DNA from: Fidelibacterota bacterium | Lineage (GTDB): Bacteria > Pseudomonadota > Alphaproteobacteria > Rhodospirillales > Rhodospirillaceae | Length of the DNA stretch: 64,000 bases | Direction: 5' to 3' | Assembly (NCBI GenBank): GCA_947476895.1 | Contig: CANJRX010000001.1 | Span: forward strand, 1-64,000 | Shown: in pieces, positions 1,656 through 20,303 of the stretch | Numbering within the stretch: the stretch's first letter is position 1 | Layout of the letters: each line of letters begins with the position of its first letter | Notes under the pieces: model-generated | What the model was told of the DNA's origin: nothing | The model's database searches: none | The model's input: the letters and a program-made list of their open reading frames with translations, nothing else | Made by a program: the position numbers and the translations under genes

Positions 1656-2525
1656 CTACTTCTTCGCGGCCAACATCGCTTGGATGTCTTTCACCGCGCC
1701 ATTTACCTTCATCTCGTGGCGGAGTTTGCCGAGTTCTACGCTCGCCATGCGAGCGTCGCCGGTGATGCCGATGTGGGGATAGTTGGCGGCGTCTGCGCCT
1801 CTGCCTTTGCCCAGCGGAGTGCCTTCCGTGTTGGGCAGCTGGTCTTTACGCACCCAGTTGGAATTGCCGGGCAGGGTTTCGAGGTACATCATCTCGGAGG
1901 TGTCCTCGAGGCCGCCGTGCGAGCCATTGGGCAGGCCTTTGGCCGCAATGATCTTGGCGTAGGCTTCGCGCGCGGAGATATAAGGCGCGCTGACATAAAT
2001 GACGTGCACGCCCTTGGGCGCCCATTTCGCTTCGAGTTTCTTCGCGAGCTTGTCGTACATGCCGTCAGGACCCTGTCCGCCGCCGCTGTCGCCCATCAGC
2101 ACCACGTTCTTGAAGCCGTTGGCGATGGCTTGTTCGGAGACGTACTCCATCACTTCGCCCAGGATATCGACACTCAGGCCGATGTTGCCGGGGTTCTCAG
2201 GGTCGGCATTGGTGGGCGAGAAGGGCATCACCGGCATGGCGATGGCGTTGCCGAGTTTTTCGGCGATGTGCTTGGACATTTCGCGGCCGATGTAGTTGTG
2301 GCCGGCGATGATGTTCTGCGGGCCGCGTTGCTCGGTACCGCCCGTGTAGAAAAGCGCGGTGGTCTTGCCAGCCGCCAGCGCCGCCTTCAGTTCGGGCCAG
2401 GTCATTTCCTGGATGTCGACGGTTTTTGGCACTGCGGCTTTAATTTCGGCGGCGTAAGCCACGCTGGCGCCCATCAATCCGGTCGCCAAGGCTGCCACCA
2501 GCCCAACTGTTTGAGCAAAGCGCAT
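1656..2525 (-). CDS. Exported creatininase-family protein with altered metal-site residues
   Basis: This is a 289-residue protein with a Sec signal peptide (about residues 1-25, cleavage after A-Y-A-A). The ATG at 2525 follows a GGGGGAAG ribosome site; a more upstream ATG would spoil the signal peptide. The body has the creatininase fold signatures: F-Y-T-G-G-T-E-Q-R-G-P-Q near residue 58 and G-I-T-G-D-A near the C-terminus. Creatininases are metal-dependent amidohydrolases. Related proteins read GGTEQ.GPH and GDHGG here, whereas this one reads GPQ and GDSGG, so two histidines expected near the metals are replaced. It ends operon A, 79 bases after the GIDN gene and beyond a hairpin terminator, so read-through or its own promoter is needed. 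Catalytic activity is uncertain. Confidence 0.8.
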   Translation of the reverse strand: MRFAQTVGLVAALATGLMGASVAYAAEIKAAVPKTVDIQEMTWPELKAALAAGKTTALFYTGGTEQRGPQNIIAGHNYIGREMSKHIAEKLGNAIAMPVMPFSPTNADPENPGNIGLSVDILGEVMEYVSEQAIANGFKNVVLMGDSGGGQGPDGMYDKLAKKLEAKWAPKGVHVIYVSAPYISAREAYAKIIAAKGLPNGSHGGLEDTSEMMYLETLPGNSNWVRKDQLPNTEGTPLGKGRGADAANYPHIGITGDARMASVELGKLRHEMKVNGAVKDIQAMLAAKK

Positions 2526-2568
2526 AGGTATCTTCCCCCTTAATGAGATGTATGTTCCGGCCAAAAGT

Positions 2569-2603
2569 AAAAGGCGGTCAGTTCTGCTGACCGCCTTTTG
2601 TTA
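2569..2603 (-). terminator. Rho-independent terminator after the operon A GIDN gene
   Basis: A perfect 12-base stem (AAAAGGCGGTCA against TGACCGCCTTTT) surrounds a 7-base loop. The minus-strand transcript runs into CCTTTTACTTTT. It sits just past the stop of the gene at 2605-3690 and before the creatininase-like gene, so it may attenuate expression of the latter. Confidence 0.85.
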
Positions 2604-2604
2604 T

Positions 2605-3690
2605 TTAGTCCGCCTTCTTCGCCGACGAATTCTCGCTCACCGACTTTTCGGGATGCTGGATGAACGCCTGGGTCAAACGGACGCGTAAGGCCGTCGAAAT
2701 GGCCCGGTTTTCGCCGTCGATAGCATCGGGCTTTGCATCGGCCATTTTGCGCATGGCGCGATAGATCGAGGCCGTAGAAGCGGCGCCGTAAGCCTGATGG
2801 TGCGTAGAGCGCGTGGAGTTGCTGGATATCTGCCAGTCATCGACATCCATGTAGCCGCCCATGAAGCCTTCGGCGTGATCCGGCGTCAGCGCCAGTTGCC
2901 AGCGGCTCTTGTAATAACGCACGTCGATCACGCTGCTGCTGCCAGAGGCAGACGGCAAGAAGTAATCGGCGCTTTCCGTGGTGAGCATGCCGTTCTTGAT
3001 CTTGCCCTTGAACTTCGAGATGAAGCGCTTGCCCCAACGCTCATCAGTGCGCTGGGTGGTGCCGACAAGATACTGCTTGCCGGTGGCGTCGTTCATGGTG
3101 CGGTCGAGGCCGCGGTAGGTGGTCAGCGTGACGTCGTCGTCGTTCTCAAGGCTATCAACGTCGGTGATCTCAATCAGCACGATGTTGTAGAGGTATTTGC
3201 GCCAGTTGTTGAAGGCGCCGAGGTTATAAGACCCTGAACGATAGTTCGGCACGCAGCCCCAGGCGCGCTGCAGCTGGTTGTCGATGCCCTTTTCGCCTTC
3301 CGGGCTGGTCATGTCATTGGGGCCGACTTTGTCGTCGAGGTTGATGCCGATCGACGTATTGGCGATCGAGTACTGATAAGGAATGCGTTCTTCCTTCTTC
3401 GGCCACCAGATGTCGCCTTCGCGCTCAAGCTGGGTGTCGACGATGGAATATTTTACGCCGGGCTTTTCAGGGTACAGAACCTTGAACTGCTCACGCGGAC
3501 CTTCGTTGAGGCCGCCCGGGCATTCTTTCTTGCCGTCCGGGGTATCCCAGATGGCGCGGTATTCGGTGGTCATCACGTAACCGATGGAACGGTTCCGGAT
3601 CGGGCTGTCTGCAGCCTTGGCCGCCGACACGACTGAGAGGCAGGTCGCGCTCAGCAGAGCCGCACCGAACACGCTATAACGAATGGTCAT
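2605..3690 (-). CDS. Exported protein of an uncharacterised 'GIDN' family, copy A
   Basis: This 361-residue protein has a Sec signal peptide (about 1-27, ending A-K-A-A-D). I do not recognise a named family. It is a paralogue of the 397-residue protein at 14961-16154. Both share C-P-x-G-L-N near the N-terminus, an acidic loop N-L-D-[DG]-K-[VI]-G-P-N-D followed by G-I-D-N (about residues 115-138), K-I-K-N-G, a G-G-Y segment and a C-terminal helix ending A-F-I. The acidic loop resembles a calcium-binding loop, but this is inference. The gene lies 37 bases downstream of the Lipoprotein_15 gene in operon A and ends at a strong terminator. Its constant company with DUF1592, DUF1552 and Lipoprotein_15 genes suggests a partner in the same extracytoplasmic system. 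Confidence 0.75.
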   Translation of the reverse strand: MTIRYSVFGAALLSATCLSVVSAAKAADSPIRNRSIGYVMTTEYRAIWDTPDGKKECPGGLNEGPREQFKVLYPEKPGVKYSIVDTQLEREGDIWWPKKEERIPYQYSIANTSIGINLDDKVGPNDMTSPEGEKGIDNQLQRAWGCVPNYRSGSYNLGAFNNWRKYLYNIVLIEITDVDSLENDDDVTLTTYRGLDRTMNDATGKQYLVGTTQRTDERWGKRFISKFKGKIKNGMLTTESADYFLPSASGSSSVIDVRYYKSRWQLALTPDHAEGFMGGYMDVDDWQISSNSTRSTHHQAYGAASTASIYRAMRKMADAKPDAIDGENRAISTALRVRLTQAFIQHPEKSVSENSSAKKAD

Positions 3691-3727
3691 GTGTATTCTC
3701 CGAATAATGATCTGTTAGCGGCCGCGC

Positions 3728-5089
3728 TTAACGTCCATTGAACTCTTGGCGGATCCAGAAGGAACGGTAGCCGTTACGGGCGCCGTAGAATTCACCCCAA
3801 GCGCCGGCCAGAACCGTGCCCGGCTCATCCTTGTAGAAGGTGTAGACCGGGCGGTCGCGGAACGCCCAAACGCGCAACGACTGCGAACCGGCCGTCGGAT
3901 ATTTTCCGGTGGCGGGGTCGATCTCTACGATCGTCCAGGTCTTGTTAGGCGCCTTGTCGTCTTTGGTGGCGACGATATAGGGGAAGTTCTTGGCGCAACG
4001 GAGCGGGTCGCCGCCGCCGCAGACAGCGTAGCGATACTGTTGCGGGGTATCGGGGTGGTCGCAGGACAGCTGATCCATGGCGTCGTCGCCGCAGTTATAG
4101 GCGTAGACCGCATGGCCCTTGGCATCCGCCAGCACAACGCCGGCCGGCGTATCCTGATAGGTGAAGCTTTTCGGCGGGGCAGGCGCTTTCTGGGTGAACA
4201 CGATGTTCCAACCCTTCACATCCACGCCTTCCTGATAACCCGGACCTGGATCTTCGGCGTAGGTGTAAAGCGGCTTCTTGCGGTAAGCCCATTGTTTCAC
4301 ACCGGGCGAGCGTTCGATGATCGACCAGTCTTCACGGGCCTGCACGCCGATCTGGGGTGCGAGCACCGGATGGAATTCCAGCTCGCAAACCGCATCACAG
4401 TTGGATTTATTCGGACCGTCTTTGTCGAAGGTATAGACAAACACGCCGCCGACCAGCGCCAGCTGATGTCCGGCGTCGCCGCGGTCGATGATGAACTGGC
4501 CGGGGATATCCGCCGGGGGGCCAATCGGAATGCGCGCAACCGGACCGTCGCCGCCGCGGCCAGCGCCGCGTGTGCCGCCCAGCGGGACGCCGGGTTCGCG
4601 GCCGACGTCGATCTTGGCGGTGTACAGCACGAAGCCGTCGTAGGCCCACTGCTTGGATTTGTCGCGGCGGGGGATCAGCGTCCACTTGCCGACTGGTTTG
4701 GCATCGGCCGGCGCCATCACCGGCGGCCAGGATTCAATGCAGGTCGGACGCCTATCAAGATCTGGAAGCTCCAGGCCCGCAGGATAGGGGCTCATGAAAC
4801 CTTCGTTCAGGGTGTTCTTGGTATCTTCGCAAGCCGACATGCTGGTGCGCACATCGCCGCTGCCGCCGTTGCGGAGTTCCTTGCGCGGCCATTGATACAC
4901 GGGCCGGCCATCGGTGAGGGTGTAGATCGGACCTTCAAGTTCCGAGATCATCACCTTGAAGCCTGGCGGCACCGCCTCTTTTACATGAGCGGTCGTCAGT
5001 TCGGCGGCCGTCACAACGGTAGGAGTTGTTGTACCAGCGACCATGAAGGCCGCGGCGGCAAAAGCAGTCATCAATCGCACATTTTTCAT
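3728..5089 (-). CDS. Secreted protein with Lipoprotein_15-like (Y-x4-D) repeats, copy A
   Basis: The protein has 453 residues and a signal peptide (about 1-29). The mature part holds three imperfect repeats resembling Pfam Lipoprotein_15/COG4315: an aromatic 'P-V-Y-x-W' or 'x-V-Y-x-F-D-K-D' strand, a Cys-containing segment (S-A-C, N-C-D-A-V-C), a W-x-x-x-x-R-x-D/P...W-A-Y hairpin, and 'P-L-Y-T-Y' or 'P-V-Y-T-F'. The last repeat is expanded and rich in cysteine (about residues 320-375). A glycine/arginine-rich linker lies near residue 170. The biochemical role of these repeats is unknown. The gene sits between DUF1552 (26 bases upstream) and the GIDN gene, the same core order as operon B. A 457-codon open frame on the opposite strand is a shadow. 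Confidence 0.8.
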   Translation of the reverse strand: MKNVRLMTAFAAAAFMVAGTTTPTVVTAAELTTAHVKEAVPPGFKVMISELEGPIYTLTDGRPVYQWPRKELRNGGSGDVRTSMSACEDTKNTLNEGFMSPYPAGLELPDLDRRPTCIESWPPVMAPADAKPVGKWTLIPRRDKSKQWAYDGFVLYTAKIDVGREPGVPLGGTRGAGRGGDGPVARIPIGPPADIPGQFIIDRGDAGHQLALVGGVFVYTFDKDGPNKSNCDAVCELEFHPVLAPQIGVQAREDWSIIERSPGVKQWAYRKKPLYTYAEDPGPGYQEGVDVKGWNIVFTQKAPAPPKSFTYQDTPAGVVLADAKGHAVYAYNCGDDAMDQLSCDHPDTPQQYRYAVCGGGDPLRCAKNFPYIVATKDDKAPNKTWTIVEIDPATGKYPTAGSQSLRVWAFRDRPVYTFYKDEPGTVLAGAWGEFYGARNGYRSFWIRQEFNGR

Positions 5090-5115
5090 CGTCGTTTCCT
5101 AATAGCGAGAGATCG

Positions 5116-6447
5116 CTAGGCCATGATCTCGCCGAGTTCCTTGTCGGTGGCGTTGCTGCGGCTACCCCAGCCTTTGATATCGATGCCCATCAGGCGCTGC
5201 ACGGTGTAGCCAAGGCGCGCGGTCGTAGCGCCTTCCATCTTGAGGTGCAGACCGGTCTTGATCTTGCCGCCAGCGCGGCCCGCGATCATGCCGGCCATGT
5301 TGTCCAGAGCATGCACGCGGGCGAAGCCGTGGTCGGTGAAGGCATAGATCAAGCTGTTGTCGAGCAAAGTGCCGTCGCCTTCCTTTACTTTCGAGAAGGC
5401 TTCAACGTGATAGGCCCAGGCTTCCATGGCGCGCGTCGCGAACCACGAGCACTGTTCCTGATAACCATTGGGGCCCACGGGCTCTTCGTGTGTGGTGGTG
5501 TGGTGCGGCTTTTCGAAGCCGGCGCGCACCGTGTTCGCCTGGGCGCTGGAATAGTTCATGGTGAAGACGCGGGTTTGGTCGCAGGCCGCGGCCATGACCA
5601 GAAGGTCGGTCATCATCTTGTGACGCACGGCCATCAGGTCGACTTCCGCGCCGGGCGCCGGATCGTCGCTAATTTCCTTTGGCAGCACGCACGCCGGGAT
5701 TGGCTCGGGCTTGGTGAGCTGCTGGTCGAATTGCTTTTCGAGCTGACGCAGGCCGGTCATGTATTGATCGAGGCGCTGCTTATCTGTTGCGCCGATTTCC
5801 TTCTCCAAGCCCTTCACTTCGTCGATCACGCCCGAGAGCACGCTCTTACGGACCATCAGACGCGGATTGGGCTTGAACTCCGGCGCATTCGGATCTTGGA
5901 AGGCCGGTCCGAACAAGCGCGTGTAGAAGTTGAGCGGCGAGGCATCAGGCGGCGTCGGCGAATTGGCGTTTTCGTAGGACACCGTCGAGCGCGCATCACC
6001 TGTGCAGCATACCGTCAGATTCTGGAAGCGCGTGGTGCGGCCGATCTGGTTTGAGATCGTGTGATCCAAGGTCCGGCCAGGCTTATCGCCGCCGGCGGCG
6101 GGCGATTGACCGGTCGCGTTGATGACCCAGCCTGTGTAGTGACAGAGGTTGGGATCGCCGTCGCGAAACGCGTTCATGCCCGTGAACAGATTGACGTGTT
6201 GGCTGATGTTCTTCCAGGACGCGATTTCCGGCGGCAGGTCGTAGCCGATGCCGGCCTTCTTCGGCACGAAGATGGGTGCGTCGATGCCCAAGCCCCAGAA
6301 CCAGCTGCCGAACCGCACCGGCATTTTGCGGCCATCGGCGAGTGCGGTGCCGTTGGTGTTCAAGAAGCAATCCAACAAGGGGAGCGCCAAGGTGACGGCG
6401 CTACCGCCGAGCATACCGCGCAAAGCACGACGTCTGGTGATGGTCAT
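5116..6447 (-). CDS. DUF1552 protein with Tat signal, copy A
   Basis: The protein has 443 residues and begins with a twin-arginine signal (T-R-R-R-A-L-R-G followed by a hydrophobic stretch to about residue 30), so it is probably exported folded. The body matches DUF1552 (PF07586): W-F-W-G-L-G-I near residue 50, H-x-x-T-H-E-E near residue 305 (the family's HxxSHH position), and a C-terminal sulfatase-like 'L-I-Y-A-F-T-D-H-G-F' segment near residue 370. The fold is thought to relate to alkaline phosphatase-like proteins, but no activity is established. It is the second gene of operon A, 14 bases after DUF1592. DUF1552 and DUF1592 genes are commonly neighbours in bacteria. Copy B is at 11929-13251. 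Confidence 0.9.
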   Translation of the reverse strand: MTITRRRALRGMLGGSAVTLALPLLDCFLNTNGTALADGRKMPVRFGSWFWGLGIDAPIFVPKKAGIGYDLPPEIASWKNISQHVNLFTGMNAFRDGDPNLCHYTGWVINATGQSPAAGGDKPGRTLDHTISNQIGRTTRFQNLTVCCTGDARSTVSYENANSPTPPDASPLNFYTRLFGPAFQDPNAPEFKPNPRLMVRKSVLSGVIDEVKGLEKEIGATDKQRLDQYMTGLRQLEKQFDQQLTKPEPIPACVLPKEISDDPAPGAEVDLMAVRHKMMTDLLVMAAACDQTRVFTMNYSSAQANTVRAGFEKPHHTTTHEEPVGPNGYQEQCSWFATRAMEAWAYHVEAFSKVKEGDGTLLDNSLIYAFTDHGFARVHALDNMAGMIAGRAGGKIKTGLHLKMEGATTARLGYTVQRLMGIDIKGWGSRSNATDKELGEIMA

Positions 6448-6461
6448 CTTAGAGTCCTTCC

Positions 6462-8216
6462 TTATTGAACGCTTGCGGCCGCCGGCGAAACACTCGCGGC
6501 AGCCGTTTTAGTCGGGGCCTGCTCTTCGCGGACGGTCGAGAAAGCCTTGCTCAAGGTGATGGTGCGCAGTAACGGGCGCAGGCGATAACCGCCCGCTTCG
6601 AACTGCTTATAAAGCGCGGCCATTTCGGTCCGTGGGACGATGTTAGACGGGCTGCCGGTGCCGTAGGAATAAACACGGCGCGCCAGGCACTGCGTTACCG
6701 CCGGATGGTCGTGCAGCACGAGCGCCAGCTGGCGGATGTCGGTGAAGTCTTTGCCGTCCATGCTGCCGCTGGCGTCGATCTTGGCGCCTTTTTCGGTTTC
6801 GCGGTATTGCCCGGCGGCATCGAAGTTTTCCAAAGCGAGACCCATCGGGTCGGTCACCTTGTGGCAACCGGCACAGACCGGGTTCTTCAAGTGGAAAGAA
6901 ACACGTTCGCGCTGCGTGCGGATGTTGGGATCCGGGTTTTCCAAGGCCGAGAAATCGACGTTGGCCGGCGGACGTGGAACGGGCTGGCACAACAGAATTT
7001 CGCGCAAGGCTTTACCTCGCAGAGTCGGCGAACTGCGACCCGGATGCGAGTGCGCGGCCAGGAACGCGGCTTGCGTGAGAATGCCCATGCGTGGGCTGCC
7101 TTCAGGAAACTCATAGGCCACCCAACCAGGCGTGCTCGGCAGGCGGTAGAGCGCCGCAAGCGACGGCGACAGGAAAGTTTCGCGCGTCGTGAAAATATCG
7201 CGGTAGTCTTTGTTCTTCGTGACCAGCTGATCGACGACCATGCGCAAAGTTTGCTCGCGCGCATCCACAACGGCAACGCCGGTGAATTGCGGATAAATCT
7301 GCGCGTCTTTGGACAGGTTGTTAAAGTCTTCGAGCATCAGCATATCGTCGAAGAACGCGCGCACGCCAGACGCGATACGGTCGCTGGCCAGCATGCGATC
7401 AACCGTGCGGGCAAGACCCTTCTGCGTATGCAGTTCGCCCGAAGCTGCGGCCTTGAGCAGCAGATCATCGGGGGCGGCATTCCATAAGAAGAAGCTCAAG
7501 CGTGACGCCAACGAATAGGCATCCAGCCGCTCTTTTCCAGGGTTGGCCGGATCCGGCTCAGACCGTTCAGAGACCATCATGACGCGGGGGCTGAGCAGCA
7601 TGCCTTCAAGAGCGATGCCGAGACCGGCGTAGAAATCCTTCAGGCGCGCGGACGCGTCACGCGCTTCGCCGACATATTGCGCCAGGCGGTCGGCCTCAAG
7701 CGGGCGGCGGTAAACCAGACGGCCTACGGACGCGAGGAATGTCGACGCACAGGCATCATCCGACGCTTCTTCCGACTTCGGTGTGCACGGCACCAGGAAG
7801 TGGCGGTTGCTTTCATTGACGACTTCGAGCGCCGCCGTCGCCGCGGTCTTTTGATAAAGCTCCAGCTGGCTTGGAGTCACGCCGGCAAAAGATCTGCCGA
7901 CCCCCAACAAGCCATCCGTGCGGGTCACCGGCGCAAAAGCGACCGGCGGGCTGATGTTCGGGCCAAATATATAAGCGAGCGTGTTGTGAAGCTGCTCGGC
8001 GGTCACCAAGCGCAAGCGCAAGGGCGATCCATCGGTCTCTGCCGTGTCAGTTGCCGGGCTCACAGCCGCAGCGCTGGTTTTCGATGGGGCGGTAGGCGCA
8101 GTGGTGTCTGAGCAACTTACCAATACGGCCGCTGTGGCGATGGCGATGGCGAACTTTGAAACGCTGTTCGTGGCACGCGACGCAAAATGAATCTTATTCG
8201 TCTGAAACAAACGCAC
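6462..8216 (-). CDS. DUF1592/DUF1588/DUF1585 c-type haem lipoprotein, copy A
   Basis: The protein has 584 residues. A GTG start at 8216 follows GGGAGGAAA. The N-terminus carries a lipobox, L-V-S-C near residue 35, predicting a lipoprotein. Domains in order: DUF1587-like (about 68-95), DUF1595 around L-V-Y-R-R-P-L (about 165-190), DUF1592 (about 235-365), DUF1588 around G-I-L-T-Q-A-A-F-L-A...H-P-G-R-S-S-P-T-x-R-G-K (about 380-470) and DUF1585 (about 510-575). A C-A-G-C-H motif at about residue 446, followed by D-P-M-G-L-A-L-E-N-F-D, fits covalent haem c. The family is known mainly from planctomycetes and environmental proteobacteria; its reaction is unknown. It is the first gene of operon A. 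Confidence 0.9.
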   Translation of the reverse strand: MRLFQTNKIHFASRATNSVSKFAIAIATAAVLVSCSDTTAPTAPSKTSAAAVSPATDTAETDGSPLRLRLVTAEQLHNTLAYIFGPNISPPVAFAPVTRTDGLLGVGRSFAGVTPSQLELYQKTAATAALEVVNESNRHFLVPCTPKSEEASDDACASTFLASVGRLVYRRPLEADRLAQYVGEARDASARLKDFYAGLGIALEGMLLSPRVMMVSERSEPDPANPGKERLDAYSLASRLSFFLWNAAPDDLLLKAAASGELHTQKGLARTVDRMLASDRIASGVRAFFDDMLMLEDFNNLSKDAQIYPQFTGVAVVDAREQTLRMVVDQLVTKNKDYRDIFTTRETFLSPSLAALYRLPSTPGWVAYEFPEGSPRMGILTQAAFLAAHSHPGRSSPTLRGKALREILLCQPVPRPPANVDFSALENPDPNIRTQRERVSFHLKNPVCAGCHKVTDPMGLALENFDAAGQYRETEKGAKIDASGSMDGKDFTDIRQLALVLHDHPAVTQCLARRVYSYGTGSPSNIVPRTEMAALYKQFEAGGYRLRPLLRTITLSKAFSTVREEQAPTKTAAASVSPAAASVQ

Positions 8217-8291
8217 GACTTTCCTCCCGGCGACTTGTCTGAACTCAACGGCACGCTGCCGCGATTCCTGAACCTTTCCTAACTTTGCTCT

Positions 8292-8462
8292 TTATGTACG
8301 CTGAGTCGTCGACCTCCTCCCCGAGGTGGCGACTCGCTTTAACGCGAGAATTCCCAAAATTCCCGTCAAGGCCGCAACGGCACTCAAGCCGTTGTAAACA
8401 CTCACAAAATCACTACTGGCCTTGTCCAAAGTAATTTCGACTACGTACGCTGAATATGGCAT
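8292..8462 (-). CDS. Possible small single-span membrane protein, 56 residues
   Basis: An ATG at 8462 opens a 56-codon frame to a TAA at 8292. The product begins MPYSAYVVEITLDKASS and has one predicted membrane helix (G-L-S-A-V-A-A-L-T-G-I-L-G-I-L-A-L) followed by a basic tail (K-R-V...G-R-R). This resembles a short C-terminal sorting helix. The ribosome site is weak: GAGGTGG lies about 20 bases upstream. It is the only coding signal I see in the 376-base gap 8217-8592 ahead of operon A; the rest of the gap (8463-8592) holds nothing recognisable. It could be a small protein of the system or the remnant of a larger gene. Confidence 0.35.
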   Translation of the reverse strand: MPYSAYVVEITLDKASSDFVSVYNGLSAVAALTGILGILALKRVATSGRRSTTQRT

Positions 8463-8592
8463 TCAGCACTATTTATGTCCACCTCGTTGACTGCTGAGAT
8501 TTACGGCAGCTATCTGAGGAGCACCTGAGATTGCTTCAATTATACGCAGATTTGGGTCGTTTCGGCAGGGGATTAGGGGCCGACGGCTGTAT

Positions 8593-9490
8593 TTAAGGGG
8601 TGTGCTCGCGTGGAAGGATTATGGTGGCTCTGAGGCCGCCTTCCGGGCGATTGCTGAGTTTCAGCTCGCCGCCGTGGTTCAGCACGATGGACCGCGTGAT
8701 GGCCAGTCCCAAACCCGAGCCGCCGGTCTCGCGGCTGCGCGAGCCTTCCAGGCGCACGAACGGCTGAAATGCCTTTTCCATTTGGTCTTCTGGAATTCCC
8801 GGACCTTCATCGTCAATCATGATGCGGAGCGCCTGATCGTCGTTGATCAGATGAATACGTGAGCGCTTGCCGTATTTGGCGCCGTTCTCCGCAAGGTTGC
8901 GAATGGCGCGGCGCAGAGAATGGCGGCCGGCACTTCAAAGTAACGCCGCGCTCTACGTCGGCTGTGGCGTCGATCCCGGCGTCACTCAGGTCGTCGCAGA
9001 TGCCTTCGATCAGCGCGGAAATATCGACCCTGTCGGTTTTCTCGGTGAAGGACTCATCCTTCGCCAAGGTCAGCGTCGCTTCCGTCAAATGCTGCATGTC
9101 GGTGATCAAGGCTTGCATGCGCTCGCGATTTTCGTCGTCGTCCACCAGATCGGCCCGCAAGCGCAAAGCGGTGATGGGCGTGCGCAAATCGTGGCTGATA
9201 CCGGCCAGCATTTCCGTGCGCCCTTGAACAAAGCGGCGTAAACGCAGGCTCATGTTGTTGAAGGCTTGCGTGAGCTGGCGCACTTCCGATGTGCCGGACT
9301 CAGGCAAGGGGTCGCTGTTCTCGCCGCGCCCCAAACGGTCTGCAGCACGCGCCAGCAAATTGAGCCGCTGCGTTGCAAAGACGACGACCGGAATAACGAA
9401 GGCCAATATCAACAGCAGAATAAGGCCGTTTTGGTACAGCACCGTTTCCAGCCACGGCGGCAAGCCATTGGTGTAGAGCTGTTCGACATC
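8593..9490 (-). pseudogene. Sensor histidine kinase, 5'-truncated and frameshifted
   Basis: Reading leftward, the frame contains the end of a periplasmic region (V-E-Q-L-Y-T-N-G-L-P-P-W), a membrane helix (L-I-L-L-L-I-L-A-F-V-I-P-V-V), a HAMP domain, and the H-box G-I-S-H-D-L-R-T-P-I-T. After residues L-K-C-R-P, near 8910-8930, the frame shifts by one base. The N-box (R-R-A-I-R-N-L-A-E-N) and G-boxes (D-E-G-P-G-I-P, G-S-G-L-G-L-A-I) continue in another frame to the TAA at 8593. The 5' end, including the first membrane helix, is missing: upstream of V the frame hits TGA at 9491-9493, where an ArsR remnant begins on the other strand. No response regulator is adjacent. The two independent lesions argue for a true pseudogene; the frameshift alone could be an assembly error. 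Confidence 0.85.
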
Positions 9491-10374: not shown

Positions 10375-10388
10375 AAAAGGCCCATGCC

Positions 10389-11913: not shown

Positions 11914-11928
11914 CTCACTAGGTCAGGG

Positions 11929-13251: not shown

Positions 13252-13289
13252 ATTAGCCTCCCGGTTAGGTCCCGTTGGGACCTTTGTGT

Positions 13290-14960
13290 CTAGTTCGCCG
13301 CGCTCTGAAAAAACTCAGGGCTGCCAGCAATGGTCTTCATGAGATCGGTGACGCGATATCCGTTTTGTGCGAACGAACCTTGCAGTTGCTTTGTCCATCC
13401 TGCCTGCGACCGGCTCGCGTCGCGACCCAAGCCGTAGGCGGTCAAACGATTGACGAGACATGAGGTCGCCGCGGGCAGCTGCCCGACAACCTGGCCCAGG
13501 CTTGAGGAATTGCTGAAGGCCTTGCCATCAATCATCCCGTTCGTGTCGATCGACGCACCGTTTTCGGATTGGCGGTAACTTCCGTCGGTATCAAAGTGCT
13601 CCAGTGCCAGCCCGATCGGATCGGTAATCTTGTGACAGCCCGTGCACATGGCTTCGGTGGCGTGCGCGTTCAAACGTTCACGCGCCGTTTTGTACAAGGG
13701 ATTGGTTGTGTCCTGCAGAACAGTGAAGTTCACGTTCGGCGGCGGATCCGGCACGCGCTGGCAAAGGATCACTTCGCGCATGGCCTTGCCGCGAAGCGTT
13801 GGCGACGTGCGGCCGGGATGCGAATGCAAGGATACAAAACTGGCGTGCGTCAGAATGCCTACGCGCTGATCACCTTCCGGGTATTCGTAGGCTGACCATT
13901 TTTGCGGATAGCCGTTGGGTTTGTCATTGACCACAGCCACCCGATACAACGACCCCAGCATGGGCGTCAGAAACGTTTTGCGGGTCGTAAACAGCTCGCG
14001 GTAATCGCCGTTCTGATTGACAAGGTGATGCGAGATCGTACGCAGAGTCTGCTCACGCGCATCATCCGACGCTTCGCGCGTGAAGTTCGGATAGAGCGTC
14101 GCGTCTTTCGCTACCAAATCCAATTGGTCAAAGTTGAGCATGTCGGTAAAAAACGCGCGCATGCCATCTTCAAGGCGCGGCGAAGCGACGAGTCGATCGA
14201 CCTGCTTCTTTAGGCCCGCAGGCGTATCAAGGCTGCCATCGCGTGCCGCTTCGAACAAAAGGCGATCCGGCGTCGAGTCCCAGAAAAAGAAGCTTAAACG
14301 CGTCGCTTTGGAATAAGCGTCCAATTCGGAAGTGCCCGGCATCGTCTTCGAAGCCACTACCGTCTCTTGGCGATACAGGAACTGGGGCTGAACCAGCATC
14401 GATTCCAAACTCAGCGTCAGACCGGCATAAAAGTCCTTCATGCTGGTTGCGGCCTTGGTGGCGATGTCCATTTGTTTCGCAAGCTCATCCGGGAATAGCG
14501 GCCGGCGGTAAAGAAGCTCGCCGATTTTGGACAGGAACTGCTGTGCACAGGCGGCGTCCGCGCCCGTTGGCGTAGCGGGTTTGCACGGCACCAGAATGTC
14601 GCGGTGTGTTGCGTCTAGGGCCTGGGCTGCGACACCTTGCGCAATTGAGTAATACTGCCGGAAACCTGCTGCAGTCAGGGCGACCTGTCCTGATCCCACT
14701 TCCAATAAGCCCGAGACGCGCGGTATCGGCTCAAAACGCCCTCTGATCTCGATATCGCCACCGAAGACATCGTTCACGATCCGTTGATACTGCTCCGGCG
14801 TGAGCCGGCGCATACGTGCGTTATCGCCGGCAGCAGCCGAGGTCACTTCCTGTGCCGCATTAACGGAGGGAAAATTTGCCACGGCAAAAGCTGTTGTCGC
14901 GGCAATCACGGCCGCGCCTGCCAACAGCGCCGCGCGGCGCGGGGAGCGGAAAGACTTCAT
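13290..14960 (-). CDS. DUF1592/DUF1588/DUF1585 c-type haem protein, copy B
   Basis: The protein has 556 residues with a Sec signal (about 1-36) and, unlike copy A, no obvious lipobox. Domains: DUF1587-like around R-R-L-T-P-E-Q-Y-Q-R-I-V-N-D-V-F-G (about 50-68), DUF1595 around L-L-Y-R-R-P-L-F (about 145), DUF1592 around R-L-S-F-F-F-W-D-S-T-P-D (about 215-345), DUF1588 with H-P-G-R-T-S-P-T-L-R-G-K (about 385), haem motif C-T-G-C-H followed by D-P-I-G-L-A-L-E-H-F-D (about 437-455), and DUF1585 at the end. The start codon directly abuts the stop of the GIDN gene (TAA then ATG), which implies translational coupling. Localisation is probably periplasmic. Confidence 0.9.
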   Translation of the reverse strand: MKSFRSPRRAALLAGAAVIAATTAFAVANFPSVNAAQEVTSAAAGDNARMRRLTPEQYQRIVNDVFGGDIEIRGRFEPIPRVSGLLEVGSGQVALTAAGFRQYYSIAQGVAAQALDATHRDILVPCKPATPTGADAACAQQFLSKIGELLYRRPLFPDELAKQMDIATKAATSMKDFYAGLTLSLESMLVQPQFLYRQETVVASKTMPGTSELDAYSKATRLSFFFWDSTPDRLLFEAARDGSLDTPAGLKKQVDRLVASPRLEDGMRAFFTDMLNFDQLDLVAKDATLYPNFTREASDDAREQTLRTISHHLVNQNGDYRELFTTRKTFLTPMLGSLYRVAVVNDKPNGYPQKWSAYEYPEGDQRVGILTHASFVSLHSHPGRTSPTLRGKAMREVILCQRVPDPPPNVNFTVLQDTTNPLYKTARERLNAHATEAMCTGCHKITDPIGLALEHFDTDGSYRQSENGASIDTNGMIDGKAFSNSSSLGQVVGQLPAATSCLVNRLTAYGLGRDASRSQAGWTKQLQGSFAQNGYRVTDLMKTIAGSPEFFQSAAN

Positions 14961-16154
14961 TTATTTGCTCCGAGAATTTGAAGTATTGGAAAATTGTACG
15001 TTCGCAGGCGCGGTGACTTGCTCGCTTTCCCGGATAAACGCAGGGATAGCGTTGATACGCCACGTCGTCGAAATTTCCGTGTTCTGCCCCGTCTGAGGAT
15101 CCGGCGATGCGTCGGCGGCCTGCTTTAAGGAATAATACAACGCCGGAATATTCGTGCCGGACATGAATTCATAGTTGGGCCCGCCGTTTGAGCCTTCCAT
15201 GTACAGAACCTTCCAGGGAAGGTAGCCGCCCAGAACGGCTTCAAGCGAGCCGTCCTTTTCAAAATATCCTCTGAACTTAGGGACGCGCAGTTTGAGATTT
15301 GTCACGCCGTACGGGTCGCCAAGCATTTCAAAGCGCTCACCTTCGGCAAAGATAACGCCGTTTTTGATCGTGCCTTTAAAAGTGTTTTGCCACCGCGCAT
15401 CTGGGTCGCGTCTAAAGGTCCAATAGCGGCGCGGAACACCTGTCGCGTCGCGCACAGCACGTTCCATGGCGCGGAAGATGTGTACAGTCACATCGCCGTC
15501 CTTGCTGAAGTCGGCAGCTTCCAGCCGCACCAGCCATGCCGCCTGTTTATCGCGTGCGATGTCCCAGTGGCGCGAGCCGTACGTGGGCGGCTCGGTCCGC
15601 GACCCGCGTTGATTTACTTGACATCCGGAAGACCGCCAATAAGCGTTGTCGATCCCTTTCTCGTTTGTATCGGGATCAATAAAATCATTCGGACCAATTT
15701 TGCCGTCGAGGTTAAAGCCGTAAGCATAGGGTCCTGTATTCGACTTCATCGCCTTAACATCGGGAACCGATACGGGATAAGCATAGGCATGCATGGGCCT
15801 GCCTTCCAAATCGCGGCCGCGATAAATGATGGCTTCTTGAATGGCTGGTCCGCCGGTTCCGCCGGTAATATTCGTAACCAAATTTTCGGTTACTTCTTTC
15901 GAGAGACCCACCGCGCGAAGTTGCGCCGTCACCATCTCTTCTGGCGAACCGTTCAGACCTTGCGGACAATCGGTATCGTTCGGCAGCGCGTTGGATGCCT
16001 CGATAAACCAGTTCATCATGTATTCGCGTGTCTCGGCTTGCGCCGGCGCGGTCGCGCCCACAGCCAAGATGCCAAGACCTAAGGCCAACCCGAGTTGGCG
16101 GCCCCGCTCAGTTCGCGAAACTGTTTTGATAGACGTATGATTTTGTGAACCCAC
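14961..16154 (-). CDS. Exported protein of an uncharacterised 'GIDN' family, copy B
   Basis: The protein has 397 residues. The GTG at 16154 follows AGGGAGAG, and an extended signal peptide reaches about residue 41 (A-P-A-Q-A). It shares with the 361-residue protein of operon A the motifs C-P-Q-G-L-N, N-L-D-G-K-I-G-P-N-D, K-G-I-D-N, G-T-I-K-N-G, and a C-terminal G-G-Y-L-P-W...L-Y-Y-S-L-K-Q-A-A-D segment. Here it is the first gene of the operon, whereas in A it follows Lipoprotein_15. That shows the pairing is kept despite rearrangement. Family name and function are unknown to me. The promoter region upstream carries three dyad sequences. Confidence 0.75.
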   Translation of the reverse strand: MGSQNHTSIKTVSRTERGRQLGLALGLGILAVGATAPAQAETREYMMNWFIEASNALPNDTDCPQGLNGSPEEMVTAQLRAVGLSKEVTENLVTNITGGTGGPAIQEAIIYRGRDLEGRPMHAYAYPVSVPDVKAMKSNTGPYAYGFNLDGKIGPNDFIDPDTNEKGIDNAYWRSSGCQVNQRGSRTEPPTYGSRHWDIARDKQAAWLVRLEAADFSKDGDVTVHIFRAMERAVRDATGVPRRYWTFRRDPDARWQNTFKGTIKNGVIFAEGERFEMLGDPYGVTNLKLRVPKFRGYFEKDGSLEAVLGGYLPWKVLYMEGSNGGPNYEFMSGTNIPALYYSLKQAADASPDPQTGQNTEISTTWRINAIPAFIRESEQVTAPANVQFSNTSNSRSK

Positions 16155-16214
16155 TCGACACTCTCCCTATTGCTCTTCCGACGCTCGATCGTAAGCGTTG
16201 GCCATCCCATGCCG

Positions 16215-16288
16215 CGCTTGCGCATTATAATGCGAATCTGGGGCATGTCCCAGCATTGCGCACGCGAAACGTTGTTACATTGTGTAAC
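16215..16288 (-). promoter_or_regulatory. Operon B promoter region with a TATAAT box and three dyads
   Basis: On the minus strand a perfect TATAAT lies inside the 14-base palindrome CGCATTATAATGCG (16222-16235). It would start transcription about 60 bases before the GTG at 16154. Upstream are the dyads CTGGG-N6-CCCAG (16239-16254) and GTTACA-TTG-TGTAAC (16274-16288), candidate regulator sites. The -35 hexamer (TGGGAC, 17-base spacing) is poor, which suits an activator-dependent promoter. Single palindromes of 12-14 bases occur by chance in a window this size; the cluster is what is notable. Confidence 0.5.
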
Positions 16289-16422
16289 CACGGACCGTGA
16301 CTGTGACACCGAGCGCAGCCAATTGCTGCAGCTGCTAGCTAGGTGAGTGTCTGTAACCCGCCATGGAACTTTTATTGCGCGTGGCGGGGTCCTGAGCTTG
16401 TATTTAAGCGTTGTTTCGCGGC

Positions 16423-18705
16423 TCAGTGCGCCAAGGGATCGGGCCGCACTTGGAACTTCACGATCTGAGGTCCAGACACACCGTCGTCCCCACCTTCCTG
16501 ATGCCACACAGGTTGGGACGCGTAGGTGGCGAACACACCTTTGCCTTTCCAATCGGCTTTGGCGTCGTCGATCCGCCCTTCCATCCCGCGCGTGTGGAAA
16601 TCCATCGGATAAGGCACGCGCAGAACCGTCCATTTCTCGACGGTAGGATCAAAGGCGAGAAGCGAGTCGGAGTTTGAGCCGGCTAGCACCGGAACGTCTT
16701 TGCCTAAACCCAAGGTGTTATGAAGATCGACCCACATTAAATAGTGAAAGTCTGCCGAACCATTTTTCACGCCCTCGTAGTTGGGGCCGGGCGTATTGAA
16801 ATAGCTCCATCCTTCGGGACAGTGCTGTCCGGTTGCTGTGGGACCGCTCAGCACTTTGCATTTGGTACGATCAAGCTTGCCCAACCGCCCTTGCCCAAAG
16901 GCCGCCCACGCGACGCCGTTCGAACCAACCGACATGCCGCGCACATTGTAACCCTCGTAGCTGCCATCCGGTAACTTCGCTGGTTCGTAGACTTCAGTCC
17001 GGCACGTTTCGGGGGGATTGGTGCCCGGGCTGAACTTCACGAGTTGGCTCGGCCACGGGCCGGTTTTTCCGTACCACATTGACGCATCGGTAAGGTCAAC
17101 GTCTTGGCCATATAAAAAGCCAGTGATGCGCGTATCTTTCTTCGGATCAATCGCAGCTTCGCCTGTTTTAGATCCGCTAATCGCATTGCCTTCATCCGCA
17201 GCTGTCGCGCCGTTGGCAGGATTGTTCCACTGCTTGCGGTCCGGCGTGATAGGTGAAGCGTTGAGCGCGGCGACCTTTGACGGCGTGGTCGAATTGGTAT
17301 CGACAACCAGCGGGCACCAGCCGGCGGATTTTGCCGGATCATGGGTTTTGTCCCACTCAGCAACCTCAACCCAGCCGGCAACGTTGTCGCCGCCGCTGTG
17401 ATACATTTTGCCGTCGGTTGACGGCATCAGATGCTGAAGGTTGCTGCACATCGGCACACCTTCGATTTTATTGGTCTTCGGATCCCAAATTACAAACGTG
17501 GAAACGGCCTTGCCCGGCTGAGGCCAATACTTTGCGTACTTACTCACGGCGGCATCCGCGCAGTACGGCAACTTCTGTGGCGCGCGCGCATAGTCTTTCG
17601 GATCACGAAAACCACGATCAGTGATCCAGAGACGCCCTTTACTATCGAGGATCGGGTTGTGCGGAACGCCGACCTTCTGAGGATCGGGAGTCGTGAGAAG
17701 CTCGACGCCATCTGTTCCGTTTACTTTGTACGCGAACTCCGTCTGCGAGTGCGTAACAGGGTTCAAGACTTCGATGTGGCCCGTTCCACTGATCACGCCA
17801 TAAACAGGACCGTTCGCGTTTACAGTCGGGTCATTGCGATATGTCGCCGTAAGGTCGTGATTGTAGCGCCCGTTGGCCCAGTCCCACGAGGTGAGGACGA
17901 TATTACGTTCCGCACCTTGCGGACGTGGCGGCGCTTCTTTCGGAAGTTCGCCCTTCGCGACTCTTTGTGTGAAGTCGACGAACATGTTTAAACCGCGCAC
18001 ACGCCCAAATTGCGTCATCCGGTTTTGCATGGCCGCGGCATGTTCTGGTCCAGTGTTGCCGAGCGCCTGGTCGCCAGCTTCGCGCGCTTTGGTAATGCGC
18101 TCGGCCCAACCCTCCGGCGTGTTATCCGACAATGTGCGTGTCAGCTTGTCTCCTTGCTGATGACACTGATGACAACCATCCTTCAGCAGTTGCAGCCATT
18201 GCTGCTGCGTCTGCATATTGGCCGCGATACCATTGCCTTTAGGTCCGGTGCCGGGAAATTCGCTCGCGGCCGGAATCTTAAACATCGCTTCCCAGTAGTT
18301 GGCCGGATAATAGTCCGCAGCCGCTTTGGCGTTGGGCGCCTGGACTGATTTGAGCGCGATATTTTTGCCCGGGGCGCCGTCGACGTGCGGTGAATCCACC
18401 AGACCGTATCCGCGCACCCAAATTTCATATTTTGCTTTCGGCAGTTCCGGGATCATGAAACGGCCTTGGTCGTCGGTGACGACCACTTTTATATAGCGTG
18501 TGGGAAGATCACTTGTTTGGGCGATCACCCAAACCCCGGCTTCGGGACCTTTAGCGCCCATGACGACACCGCCGATGCCGTCAGCCACAGTCGGCATATC
18601 CGCCGCCATACTCGCTGGGACGTAAGCCGCTCCCGAAATCAGCAGCCCCGATACCAACGTCCATGTAGTCGACAACAACGCACTGCGAAATTTGAGTTTC
18701 ATCAT
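16423..18705 (-). CDS. CxxCH cytochrome/beta-propeller protein with carboxypeptidase-regulatory-like domain, copy 1
   Basis: The protein has about 760 residues. Paired ATGs at 18705/18702 follow GGGAGGG; the upstream frame lacks a ribosome site. After a signal peptide comes a CarboxypepD_reg-like domain (G-G-V-V-M-G-A-K-G-P-E-A-G-V-W-V, about 42-125). A C-H-Q-C-H haem c site follows near residue 177. The C-terminal 450 residues show beta-propeller repeats (G-V-P-H-N-P-I-L-D, L-W-I-T-D-R-G-F, G-M-S-V-G-S-N-G-V-A-W-A) like virginiamycin B lyase or SMP-30 folds. Six further cysteines are conserved with copies 2 and 3. It lies between the hydrolase gene and operon B, each boundary carrying a terminator or promoter signal. 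Probably periplasmic; the reaction is unknown. Confidence 0.85.
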   Translation of the reverse strand: MMKLKFRSALLSTTWTLVSGLLISGAAYVPASMAADMPTVADGIGGVVMGAKGPEAGVWVIAQTSDLPTRYIKVVVTDDQGRFMIPELPKAKYEIWVRGYGLVDSPHVDGAPGKNIALKSVQAPNAKAAADYYPANYWEAMFKIPAASEFPGTGPKGNGIAANMQTQQQWLQLLKDGCHQCHQQGDKLTRTLSDNTPEGWAERITKAREAGDQALGNTGPEHAAAMQNRMTQFGRVRGLNMFVDFTQRVAKGELPKEAPPRPQGAERNIVLTSWDWANGRYNHDLTATYRNDPTVNANGPVYGVISGTGHIEVLNPVTHSQTEFAYKVNGTDGVELLTTPDPQKVGVPHNPILDSKGRLWITDRGFRDPKDYARAPQKLPYCADAAVSKYAKYWPQPGKAVSTFVIWDPKTNKIEGVPMCSNLQHLMPSTDGKMYHSGGDNVAGWVEVAEWDKTHDPAKSAGWCPLVVDTNSTTPSKVAALNASPITPDRKQWNNPANGATAADEGNAISGSKTGEAAIDPKKDTRITGFLYGQDVDLTDASMWYGKTGPWPSQLVKFSPGTNPPETCRTEVYEPAKLPDGSYEGYNVRGMSVGSNGVAWAAFGQGRLGKLDRTKCKVLSGPTATGQHCPEGWSYFNTPGPNYEGVKNGSADFHYLMWVDLHNTLGLGKDVPVLAGSNSDSLLAFDPTVEKWTVLRVPYPMDFHTRGMEGRIDDAKADWKGKGVFATYASQPVWHQEGGDDGVSGPQIVKFQVRPDPLAH

Positions 18706-18818
18706 CTCACCCTCCCAGGATATCGACCGAAACAAACTCCACTCCGCGTACTCTACAATAAAGGCCGGTCGACCGGTACGCTTGCTTTCAATGTGCGATG
18801 CGACTTCACATAAGGAAA

Positions 18819-18845
18819 CGCTCCCGTCGGGGTCCGACGGGAGCG
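18819..18845 (-). terminator. Rho-independent terminator after the secreted hydrolase
   Basis: A perfect 12-base stem (CGCTCCCGTCGG against CCGACGGGAGCG) has a 3-base loop and is followed on the minus strand by TTTCCTTATG. It lies 34 bases past the hydrolase stop, separating it from the cytochrome gene at 18705. Confidence 0.8.
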
Positions 18846-18878
18846 CTTAACGCCACGTATCCTGCTGAAGTGAAACGG

Positions 18879-20303
18879 TTAGAAGGGGTGCGCGAGCCCC
18901 GGCCAGTACGCCCGGTCAAACGGCGTAACAAAATCGTGGCTGACAAATCGCGGTTGCTTGGGATCGACGGCGCTTGCACGCGCCGCAAGCGCGGCCGGGG
19001 CCGTATCTGGCCAAGCGCCCTTGTCGAGCCGCTGGACCATGGTTTCCAGCGCGGCCACTGTCTCGGCCACCGACTGCGAACAATGGCCGGTCGCATCGAT
19101 GAAGCCCGTGCGGTAGTTAGCCTCTTGTCCCTTTTTCTTCACTTCGTTCGCGTAGCCGAGAAGAAGATGCGGCGGCAAAAGCGCGTCGCCCAAACCGTGG
19201 ATGTGAAGCACCGGCACTTTGATATCACCGGACAGCAAACGTCCCGGCGTGAGCCAGTAATTAACGCCTTCGCGTGATCCCTCGATACGCGGCTGCGCAT
19301 TAATCTTCGCGAGGTCCGCGTCCACGCCCTTAGCGCCGCCAAGGCCGGCACGTTCATAAAGCTTCGCGATAATCTCTTTCTGCTCGGGCATAGAGCCTTG
19401 TGCATAGAAACGTGCATAGTCGATGCCGGTGTTCCACGACGCAACGCCGGCGACATTGTCATAGAGCTGCCGACGCGTGACCGCATTTTTGAGGCCGTCC
19501 ATCGCGGACTCAAACATGGCTGTCTCCATTGAATCCAAATTGCCTGCCGTAGGCCGTGCCGGTTTCCCGCCGATCGCACCCCACATCGGATACTGCGAGA
19601 GAACCACAGCCAGGGCCACGCGCGCGCGGCCCTCAGGTGTTTTCTTGGCCTGCTCAAGCACGACTGCCCATTCGTCGTAAGCCGCCGGCAATTGGCTTTC
19701 CATCACAGGCGCGATCTTGAGGTTAGACGTCGGCGCCAGCAGCCCTTTGAGGGCGAACGGCAGATCAAGCCAGGTGTTGGCAACCGCGAGGCCACCAGTT
19801 CCGCGTGCGTTGAAAGCAACCGCGCCATTGATGATCTCGGGATGTTTCTCAGCCATGGCAAGGGCAGTGAAGCCGCCACCCGAGCAACCCATTTGAATGG
19901 TGTGCTTTCCCTTCCCGTGCTTTGCGATCACCTTTTGAATGACGGCGACCTGCGCATCCAGTTCGGAAATGGGATCATTCTTATTCATACGCTCAGGATG
20001 ACGCCCCGTGCCCACGTAAGCATAGCCATGCGAGAGCAAATAGGTGGCGAGGGGACCGTCCTCGCGACCATCGGCGTCAAGGTCACTGACAATGATGCCG
20101 TTCCAGGTTTTGGGAACAGAGATCTTATAAGGGTAGCCCGAAGGCAACGTCCCCGTTTCCCGATCTATACCTGCTAATGGCGCAGCTGCCGGCGCGCTTG
20201 CAGCTTCGGCCGTAAACACGGGCGCTAAGGTGGGCGCTGACGTGAGCGCCGAGAAAAGAAGTAGAGCGCCCGTATACCGAGCCAACCGTTTATTCACCGA
20301 CAT
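18879..20303 (-). CDS. Secreted alpha/beta hydrolase
   Basis: The protein has 474 residues with a Sec signal (about 1-35); the ATG follows GGGGAGG. The alpha/beta hydrolase core has nucleophile elbow G-C-S-G-G-G near residue 144, a likely acid in H-G-L-G-D-A near 372 and a likely histidine in A-T-G-H-C-S near 408. The catalytic triad therefore appears complete. A large lid region (about 170-330) separates the elbow from the acid. I cannot assign a substrate; esters or oligomers are possible. It heads the operon B neighbourhood with its own promoter and terminator, so co-regulation with the cytochrome module is plausible but not shown. Confidence 0.8.
   Translation of the reverse strand: MSVNKRLARYTGALLLFSALTSAPTLAPVFTAEAASAPAAAPLAGIDRETGTLPSGYPYKISVPKTWNGIIVSDLDADGREDGPLATYLLSHGYAYVGTGRHPERMNKNDPISELDAQVAVIQKVIAKHGKGKHTIQMGCSGGGFTALAMAEKHPEIINGAVAFNARGTGGLAVANTWLDLPFALKGLLAPTSNLKIAPVMESQLPAAYDEWAVVLEQAKKTPEGRARVALAVVLSQYPMWGAIGGKPARPTAGNLDSMETAMFESAMDGLKNAVTRRQLYDNVAGVASWNTGIDYARFYAQGSMPEQKEIIAKLYERAGLGGAKGVDADLAKINAQPRIEGSREGVNYWLTPGRLLSGDIKVPVLHIHGLGDALLPPHLLLGYANEVKKKGQEANYRTGFIDATGHCSQSVAETVAALETMVQRLDKGAWPDTAPAALAARASAVDPKQPRFVSHDFVTPFDRAYWPGLAHPF

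Follow-up and report, generated by a model that had tools for sequence, protein, structure and literature searches.

The window analyzed here is a stretch of 64,000 nucleotides (positions 1 to 64,000, forward strand) of contig CANJRX010000001.1 from the Fidelibacterota bacterium assembly GCA_947476895.1, whose GTDB lineage ends in Rhodospirillaceae. Its first 20 kb contain two operons, A and B, both on the minus strand. Each of them encodes the same four exported proteins, which are a single-heme c-type cytochrome with the domains DUF1587, DUF1595, DUF1592, DUF1588 and DUF1585 (PSD), a DUF1552 protein (HXXSHH family), a Lipoprotein_15 repeat protein (L15) and a member of an orphan family (GIDN). 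Comparisons of their sequences indicate that these sets are a co-inherited envelope unit, encoded in a tight operon, whose four members co-evolve and one of which has a heme site. The unit is a six-copy system in this genome, and the window holds two of the six copies. Moreover, the unit is not rigid: PSD-DUF1552 and L15-GIDN are separable pairs.

Co-occurrence, gene order and phylogeny of the four families

Operon A is transcribed in the order PSD_A (6462–8216), DUF1552_A (5116–6447), L15_A (3728–5089) and GIDN_A (2605–3690), followed by a fifth gene for a creatininase-like exported protein (1656–2564; PF02633, 96.8 bits; start codon uncertain), with intergenic gaps of 14, 26, 37 and 40 bp. 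In operon B, the order is GIDN_B (14961–16154), PSD_B (13290–14960), DUF1552_B (11929–13251) and L15_B (10540–11913), with gaps of 0, 38 and 15 bp. An earlier note on this DNA had described two operons with these four families, and open reading frames of all four families were found in both. The note had counted two sets. Both window copies are real, but the total in the genome is six. When the window's own genome (2.7 Mb in 46 contigs) was searched with PSD4, DUF1552 and GIDN, PSD4 was found at six places, DUF1552 at eight and GIDN at six, and all six GIDN places coincided with the six PSD places. The complete sets beyond the window are on contigs C14 (one), C29 (two) and C36 (one), of which the set on C36 is followed by two further DUF1552 copies. 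At L009:9835-12672, two additional DUF1552 genes and then a gene for a solute-binding protein lie behind a complete set, the protein with the twin-arginine translocation (Tat) signal being duplicated alone. Short Lipoprotein_15 proteins (open frames of 144–175 amino acids) are encoded on G000:C12 and C20, apart from any set.

The earlier note had made its proposal depend on co-occurrence of the four families in other genomes, and this co-occurrence was found. In a class sample of 289 genomes, GIDN was detected in five and DUF1552 above cut-off also in five; these were the identical five genomes, belonging to five different families. One genome with a DUF1552 match below cut-off (G130) was left out of this count. 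At most six candidates were scored per genome, so that absence of GIDN is weak evidence. The chance of such an overlap is about 6e-11 if the genomes are taken as independent, which they are not fully. L15 was present in three of the five genomes and was not found in the other two, G140 and G183, both of which have GIDN and DUF1552. Furthermore, a profile built from the six own GIDN proteins was run on a named genome collection and identified 52 loci in other genomes, which together with the own loci gave 65 GIDN genes. The labels of the records include Alphaproteobacteria, Gammaproteobacteria, Rhodospirillaceae, Steroidobacter, Sphingobium, Sphingomonas, Novosphingobium, Haliea, a metagenome-assembled genome of Deltaproteobacteria and others; some loci carry the label Candidatus Marinimicrobia, which is doubtful. 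Cultured carriers among them are Steroidobacter gossypii, with a complete set (L037), and Sphingobium vermicomposti DSM 21299, whose set lacks L15 (L061).

Within 6 kb of these 65 GIDN genes and on the same strand, PSD was found at 47, DUF1552 at 46 and L15 at 54. All three partners were found at 41, at least one at 59 and none at 6. Among the 24 GIDN genes without all three, 16 had less than 6 kb of sequence on one side. Where at least 6 kb were available on both sides (25 GIDN genes), all three partners were present at 17 and none at 2. At one locus (L041), the PSD-DUF1552 pair is divergent from GIDN-L15 and was scored as missing under the same-strand rule. Adjacent genes were mostly separated by no more than 100 bp (PSD-DUF1552, 47/47; GIDN-PSD, 35/38; DUF1552-L15, 35/36; L15-GIDN, 21/27).

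Gene orders and trees were compared for 37 complete sets among 70 groups; only genes of at least 250 residues entered the grouping. The order GIDN-PSD-DUF1552-L15 was found in 25 sets, PSD-DUF1552-L15-GIDN in 5 and L15-GIDN-PSD-DUF1552 in 5. The set of L045, read from its gene list, has the order PSD-DUF1552-L15-GIDN. Thirty-six of the 37 sets fit one cyclic order, with L033 as the sole exception. Operon B belongs to the first order type and operon A to the second. Thus, the partial rearrangement that had been noted between A and B is real, but it is a cyclic permutation. Two sets are in tandem at L031 and L042, and the three cuts of one circle could stem from tandem arrays that lost their ends.

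Over the 37 sets, correlations between the distance matrices of the families were 0.89–0.96, and none of 2000 permutations reached such values. Paralogous sets within one genome provide a test that is less open to mere species history. For the six own sets the correlations were 0.85–0.99, a level that 3 to 27 of 2000 permutations reached; for ten CANJBL sets from which the outlier of that genome had been removed, they were 0.83–0.92, and none of 2000 permutations came as high. In CANJBL, the correlations between PSD and the other families were 0.01–0.13 with one mispaired PSD (L045) and 0.91–0.94 when paired by transcription order, which means that the result depends strongly on correct pairing. 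Seventeen of 34 splits were common to all four trees. Incongruent phylogenies, which would have pointed to independent origins, are thus not indicated, even among paralogous sets within genomes.

In all four trees, operon A groups with L059, L066 and L067 and operon B with C36, L024 and L026. A relative of the creatininase-like gene is also behind GIDN in L059, L066 and L067, which makes operon A a five-gene type. The earlier note had taken A and B for duplicates of each other, a view that the four trees contradict. A recent tandem duplication is ruled out, as B pairs with C36 and A pairs with L059 of another genome in each of them. The GIDN distances are 3.9 substitutions per site between A and B and 0.59 between B and C36.

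All four members are kept in both window operons, as had been noted, but elsewhere L15 is missing or the pairs occur apart. The PSD-DUF1552 pair is wider spread and is also found without GIDN and L15. At 19 short DUF1552 loci outside the own genome, PSD was immediately upstream in 17, and the two misses were weak DUF1552 matches. Seven of these 17 loci represent a distant type, whose PSD proteins have 830–2369 residues and 2 to 4 heme motifs; no GIDN or L15 was found in the 12–18 kb read around DUF1552 at these seven. L15 is missing beside the sets in L061, L064 and L074. Conversely, L15-GIDN without PSD-DUF1552 is clearest in L071, where 10 kb were available on each side, and is also found in L053 (10 kb on each side), where a gene of the arginase family lies in between. 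Seven other loci (L043, L046, L050, L051, L057, L062 and L063) resemble the pattern of L071, but are cut by contig ends. With co-occurrence and tree congruence both holding for these exported, co-inherited proteins, the suggestion that the four work together stands, and we regard it as nearly certain that the four (or the two pairs) function jointly.

Sequence features and predicted structures of the four proteins

The CXXCH heme site was present in PSDs of all 37 complete sets. The ordered Pfam domains PSD3-PSD5-PSD4-PSCyt3-PSD2 were all above cut-off in PSD_B; in PSD_A, four were above cut-off (PSD5, PSD4, PSCyt3 and PSD2, corresponding to DUF1595-DUF1592-DUF1588-DUF1585) and PSD3 was not reported. 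PSD_A possesses one CXXCH motif and, by eye, a lipobox-type signal. Among the seven PSD proteins of the distant type, two (L101 and L103) fuse the carbohydrate-binding module CBM26, a glucose/sorbosone dehydrogenase (GSDH) domain and cytochrome domains to the PSD unit, and both CBM26 and GSDH were above cut-off. These two (L101:1720-8190 and L103:9383-16489) are very large chains with four CXXCH motifs each, and DUF1552 is the next gene. GSDH was matched only below cut-off in L102. L104 contains PKD-type domains and a match to a cellulose-binding-protein C-terminus, and L098, L099 and L100 have a cytochrome match near or under cut-off ahead of the PSD unit.

The DUF1552 proteins of operons A and B matched PF07586 with 162 and 154 bits, respectively (cut-off 30), and both have a twin-arginine signal; the start of DUF1552_A reads RRR by eye. 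An RRx motif was found within the first 60 residues of 33 of the 37 DUF1552 proteins of complete sets, and a twin-arginine-like motif within the first 45 residues of 32 of 40 aligned ones. A model of DUF1552_B was predicted from the 40-sequence alignment with a predicted local distance difference test score (pLDDT) of 84. It gave 37 Foldseek matches at E ≤ 0.001 (best E, 1.1e-5), all of which we take, by title or by family, to be members of the alkaline phosphatase superfamily, including sulfatases, LtaS/LtaP, PbgA/YejM, PH0037 and others. VIA matched the model to a nucleotide pyrophosphatase/phosphodiesterase (Z, 17.2; root mean square deviation (rmsd), 3.2; 244 aligned residues). DUF1552 is therefore predicted to have an alkaline-phosphatase fold.

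Nine residues were invariant in the 40 aligned DUF1552 proteins (H104, H312, T315, H316, E318, E353, D360, H376 and H398). Of these, H104, H312, H316, H376 and D360 were kept in all 37 module-type proteins; in the seven distant members, H312, H316 and D360 were found in all seven and H104 and H376 in six. The literal HXXSHH motif was found in two of the seven distant members, whereas the module-type proteins had HxxTHE (35/37) or HxxTHT (2/37). No conserved Asp or Glu was found behind the first strand in the alignment, a place where the alkaline phosphatase superfamily usually has an acidic residue. Similarly, HxxxH spacing is found at the position where the superfamily usually has DxxxH. The lack of a conserved acidic residue after the first strand suggests that DUF1552 may have a changed metal site.

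PF03640 was matched by L15_A with 69.1 bits and by L15_B with 129.7 bits in 4 stretches (cut-off 24.4). A CxxxC pair (C113 and C117) was kept in L15 of all 37 sets. GIDN_A and GIDN_B are homologous to each other, and GIDN did not match any Pfam or NCBIfam family. It contains two invariant cysteines (C63 and C178) and no heme motif. GIDN_B was modeled from 54 sequences (pLDDT 85). VIA matches of this model were to Cap15, avidins, TbpB, lipocalins, YceI and other small barrels with Z of about 5 to 8.3, and the best one had Z 8.3 and rmsd 4.3 over 100 residues; several unrelated barrel families were close, and matches at this level can reflect a common arrangement. By this predicted model, GIDN may be a small ligand-binding barrel. 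Sequence searches of solved structures with PSD, DUF1552, L15, GIDN and the propeller-type protein described below found no credible relative.

The earlier note had assigned Sec, lipoprotein or Tat signals to all four proteins. The lipobox of PSD_A, the RRx motif of DUF1552 and the Sec-like starts of L15 and GIDN (by eye) agree with this, but a lipobox-like motif was found by a simple pattern in only 1 of 37 L15 proteins. By that test, L15 is not a lipoprotein.

Neighboring genes

Genes for electron carriers were found at several loci: a high-potential iron-sulfur protein (HiPIP) at L071 and L074, a small cytochrome c at L027, L028 and L032, and cytochrome c' with cytochrome b561 at L061 and L064. 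A pyrroloquinoline quinone (PQQ) dehydrogenase was found at L028 by scanning and at L027, L037 and L047 by clustering, and NHL/Vgb/SGL propellers were found at L045 and L068. Further genes at the loci are for amidases, aldehyde dehydrogenase, aminotransferase, FAA hydrolase, arginase-family proteins and a thiamine pyrophosphate enzyme. Many of all these genes, the electron carriers included, directly adjoin the sets. TonB receptors, FecR and extracytoplasmic function (ECF) sigma factors are beside some sets. The own genome contains 17 plug domains, and a TonB receptor is within 2.5 kb of three of its six sets, for which a rough simulation put p at about 0.018. A scan of 19 window proteins detected no glycoside hydrolase.

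Upstream of operon B is a gene for a propeller-type protein with a single CXXCH motif and a carboxypeptidase-regulatory-like N-terminus (16423–18735, minus strand; CarboxypepD_reg below cut-off) and, farther upstream, a gene for a secreted, tannase-like alpha/beta hydrolase (18879–20303, minus strand; Abhydrolase_1 and DUF6351 above cut-off), whose membership in the module is uncertain. Relatives of the propeller-type protein are beside or near sets at L025 and L026 and on a contig to which both L027 and L028 belong; as these two loci overlap there, the seven members of the propeller cluster are five distinct genes. The propeller-type protein is rejected as an obligate member and is an optional neighbor of operon B, as only one of its six copies in the own genome is beside a set. 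Two of these copies are in tandem, at 59556–61808 of the window and at 62143–64533 of contig C1, the latter running beyond the end of the window (both on the minus strand). Two others are on C21, and one is near a TonB receptor on C14. With the clustering applied, no relative of the secreted hydrolase was found at the other loci that were fetched. Thus, among the nearby genes that had been listed with the module, the creatininase-like gene recurs in A-type sets, but the hydrolase is without relatives at those loci and the propeller-type protein is optional.

Between the operons, a histidine kinase gene (about 8217–9463, minus strand) is split, with HAMP and HisKA in one frame and an ATPase-like part (by eye) in another; this is a frameshift or an assembly error. 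Farther upstream of operon B are genes for an exported-looking caspase-like protein (20462–22051) and a MATCAP-family protein (22391–23797), both on the minus strand. Small exported proteins, cupin-like by eye, are encoded in tandem at L036:9234-12452, L007:9036-10251 and L034:3-1686, with up to six in a row (143–178 amino acids) at L036. The one relative of these proteins that was scanned (L049) had no Pfam match.

Possible functions of the module and comparison with known systems

The heme site points to a redox role of the module, as do electron-carrier genes at several loci and the fusion of two of the seven distant PSD proteins to a dehydrogenase domain, and we consider such a role probable. 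The envelope oxidation system proposed in the earlier note is supported indirectly in this respect, but the oxidation of a substrate is something that we infer, and the same applies to the substrate itself, the metal, the sequence of electron transfer steps and the roles of L15 and GIDN. In the mechanism that we put forward, DUF1552 would be loaded with metal in the cytoplasm, exported in folded form via Tat and, once in the periplasm, act on a small organic substrate. Its dedicated redox partner would be the PSD cytochrome, from which electrons would reach respiration via small cytochromes c, HiPIP or cytochrome b561. L15 and GIDN would form a second, separable pair with a role in either substrate binding or electron relay. 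A TonB receptor that adjoins a set would import the substrate, and the several divergent sets of one genome would serve different substrates. Taken as a whole, such a cytochrome-coupled envelope oxidation module is a plausible but tentative reading. A bolder form of it would be a novel envelope oxidoreductase, in which a Tat-exported protein of alkaline-phosphatase fold with a His-rich metal site would carry out catalysis together with a dedicated cytochrome and with the help of L15-GIDN, and parallel sets would have different substrates; in this form we consider it rather doubtful.

Several observations weigh against the proposed oxidation module. The fold predicted for DUF1552 is known from hydrolases rather than oxidases. 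GIDN_B had no Foldseek match at E ≤ 0.001, and family and literature searches found no described function for GIDN or Lipoprotein_15. In a phylum sample of 398 genomes, DUF1552 was found in eight and GIDN in only two, so the four families are not always together; at most four candidates were scored per genome, which makes the absence of GIDN weak here. The neighboring enzymes vary widely from locus to locus. Operons A and B are without an adjoining TonB receptor, and of 56 loci only 16 have a member of the TonB-receptor cluster c4; with a receptor at three of six own sets, the presence of a TonB receptor with every set is not upheld as a rule. Finally, isolated X183 heme domains of related proteins gave up their electrons to O2 and did not supply a lytic polysaccharide monooxygenase (LPMO), and the dehydrogenase-like pf08450-X173 pair was without activity, as described in PMC10916295.

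Alternatively, the module could be hydrolytic, with DUF1552 as a sulfatase- or phosphatase-like hydrolase and the cytochrome as a protecting or activating accessory, and no substrate would be oxidized. The predicted match of the DUF1552 fold to sulfatases and phosphodiesterases is consistent with this, and D369 (33/37), H370 (28/37) and the invariant H398 resemble late metal ligands of the superfamily. In its favor, too, some Verrucomicrobia are reported to have sulfatase genes close to PSCyt genes (He et al., 2017; PMC5615132). The lack of a conserved Asp or Glu after the first strand and HxxxH in place of DxxxH argue against it. A single-heme cytochrome in all 37 complete sets is also odd for a pure hydrolase. 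On balance, a hydrolytic module appears unlikely.

A slightly less likely alternative is that the module is an electron donor, in which electrons from the quinone pool would reach a substrate-attacking copper or iron oxygenase via PSD; such a route has been proposed for Cbp2D of Cellvibrio. X132 of Cbp2D has DUF1587 at its start (PMC8981238), which is printed as DUF1687 in a paper of 2024 (PMC10916295) and is taken here to be the same domain. X132 contains CXXCH and was stated to be without a characterized homolog (PMC8981238; PMC10916295). By this described layout, X132 would correspond to the PSD unit. An X183 domain of Cbp2D can reduce an LPMO (PMC8981238; PMC12542752; PMC10916295), and deletion of cbp2D or cbp2E in a quadruple mutant abolishes growth on insoluble cellulose (PMC12542752). 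However, the window PSDs have a single CXXCH motif and neither a carbohydrate-binding module (CBM) nor a second heme domain, so that the carbohydrate-bound layout of Cbp2D is not found here. Moreover, no LPMO was found among the portion of the flanking proteins that was scanned.

Somewhat less probable again is a respiratory or extracellular electron-transfer relay without its own substrate, in which L15 would be an outer-surface electron carrier. Cytochrome b561, cytochrome c', HiPIP and other cytochromes as neighbors at some loci would fit such a relay, but a set usually has one heme motif, and the presence of many divergent paralogs of the set in one genome (six sets here) agrees better with a diversity of substrates. 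Chance clustering of unrelated exported genes can practically be dismissed, as no point in its support was found and it is contradicted by the co-occurrence in the class sample, the partners at GIDN loci, the cyclic gene order and the congruence of trees within genomes.

The oxidation module put forward above resembles several known systems in part. Among periplasmic sugar and alcohol dehydrogenases, there are pairs of a Tat-exported enzyme and a cytochrome c. Similar to these pairs, a folded Tat protein adjoins the gene of a dedicated cytochrome here; different from them, the predicted fold is alkaline-phosphatase-like rather than a flavin or PQQ fold, and we know of no redox use of the alkaline phosphatase fold. 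Polysaccharide utilization loci with TonB receptors likewise comprise several divergent paralogous sets, and some of the sets described here are near TonB receptors, FecR and ECF sigma factors. Different from such loci, however, receptors are beside only half of the own sets, and the window proteins scanned include no glycoside hydrolase.

In the literature searched, no paper was found that describes the four genes together or that names both DUF1592 and DUF1552. PSD/PSCyt3 cytochromes and their neighbors were noted previously without a known function: according to He et al. (2017; PMC5615132), PSCyt3 genes usually adjoin a family of unknown genes, and nothing about function had been established. 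This family may be DUF1552, as DUF1552 was counted three times for PMC5615132 in a text search, although the main text of that paper does not name it. Two partner families, GIDN and Lipoprotein_15, can now be named for the PSD-DUF1552 pair. The PSCyt3/PSD proteins of Planctomycetes and Verrucomicrobia share the PSD and PSCyt3 Pfam domains with the window PSDs, but they include CBM fusions (PMC5615132), whereas the window PSDs are short, have one heme and are accompanied by two extra partner genes.

Similar to the PSD unit, X132 of Cbp2D from Cellvibrio japonicus and of TERTU_3803 and TERTU_2913 from Teredinibacter begins with a small Pfam DUF and contains a CXXCH motif. Growth on insoluble cellulose requires Cbp2D (PMC12542752), whose X132 looks like the window PSD. 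The distant PSD-DUF1552 loci L101 and L103 are alike in style to Cbp2D and TERTU_3803 in their CBM26, GSDH and cytochrome domains. Different from the X132 proteins, the window PSDs have no fused dehydrogenase in addition to lacking a CBM and a second heme domain, and their partners are encoded by separate genes. Compared with the distant PSD proteins of 830–2369 residues, the sets of the window offer a small version with fixed partners, in which the chemistry could be tested with four genes of ordinary size.

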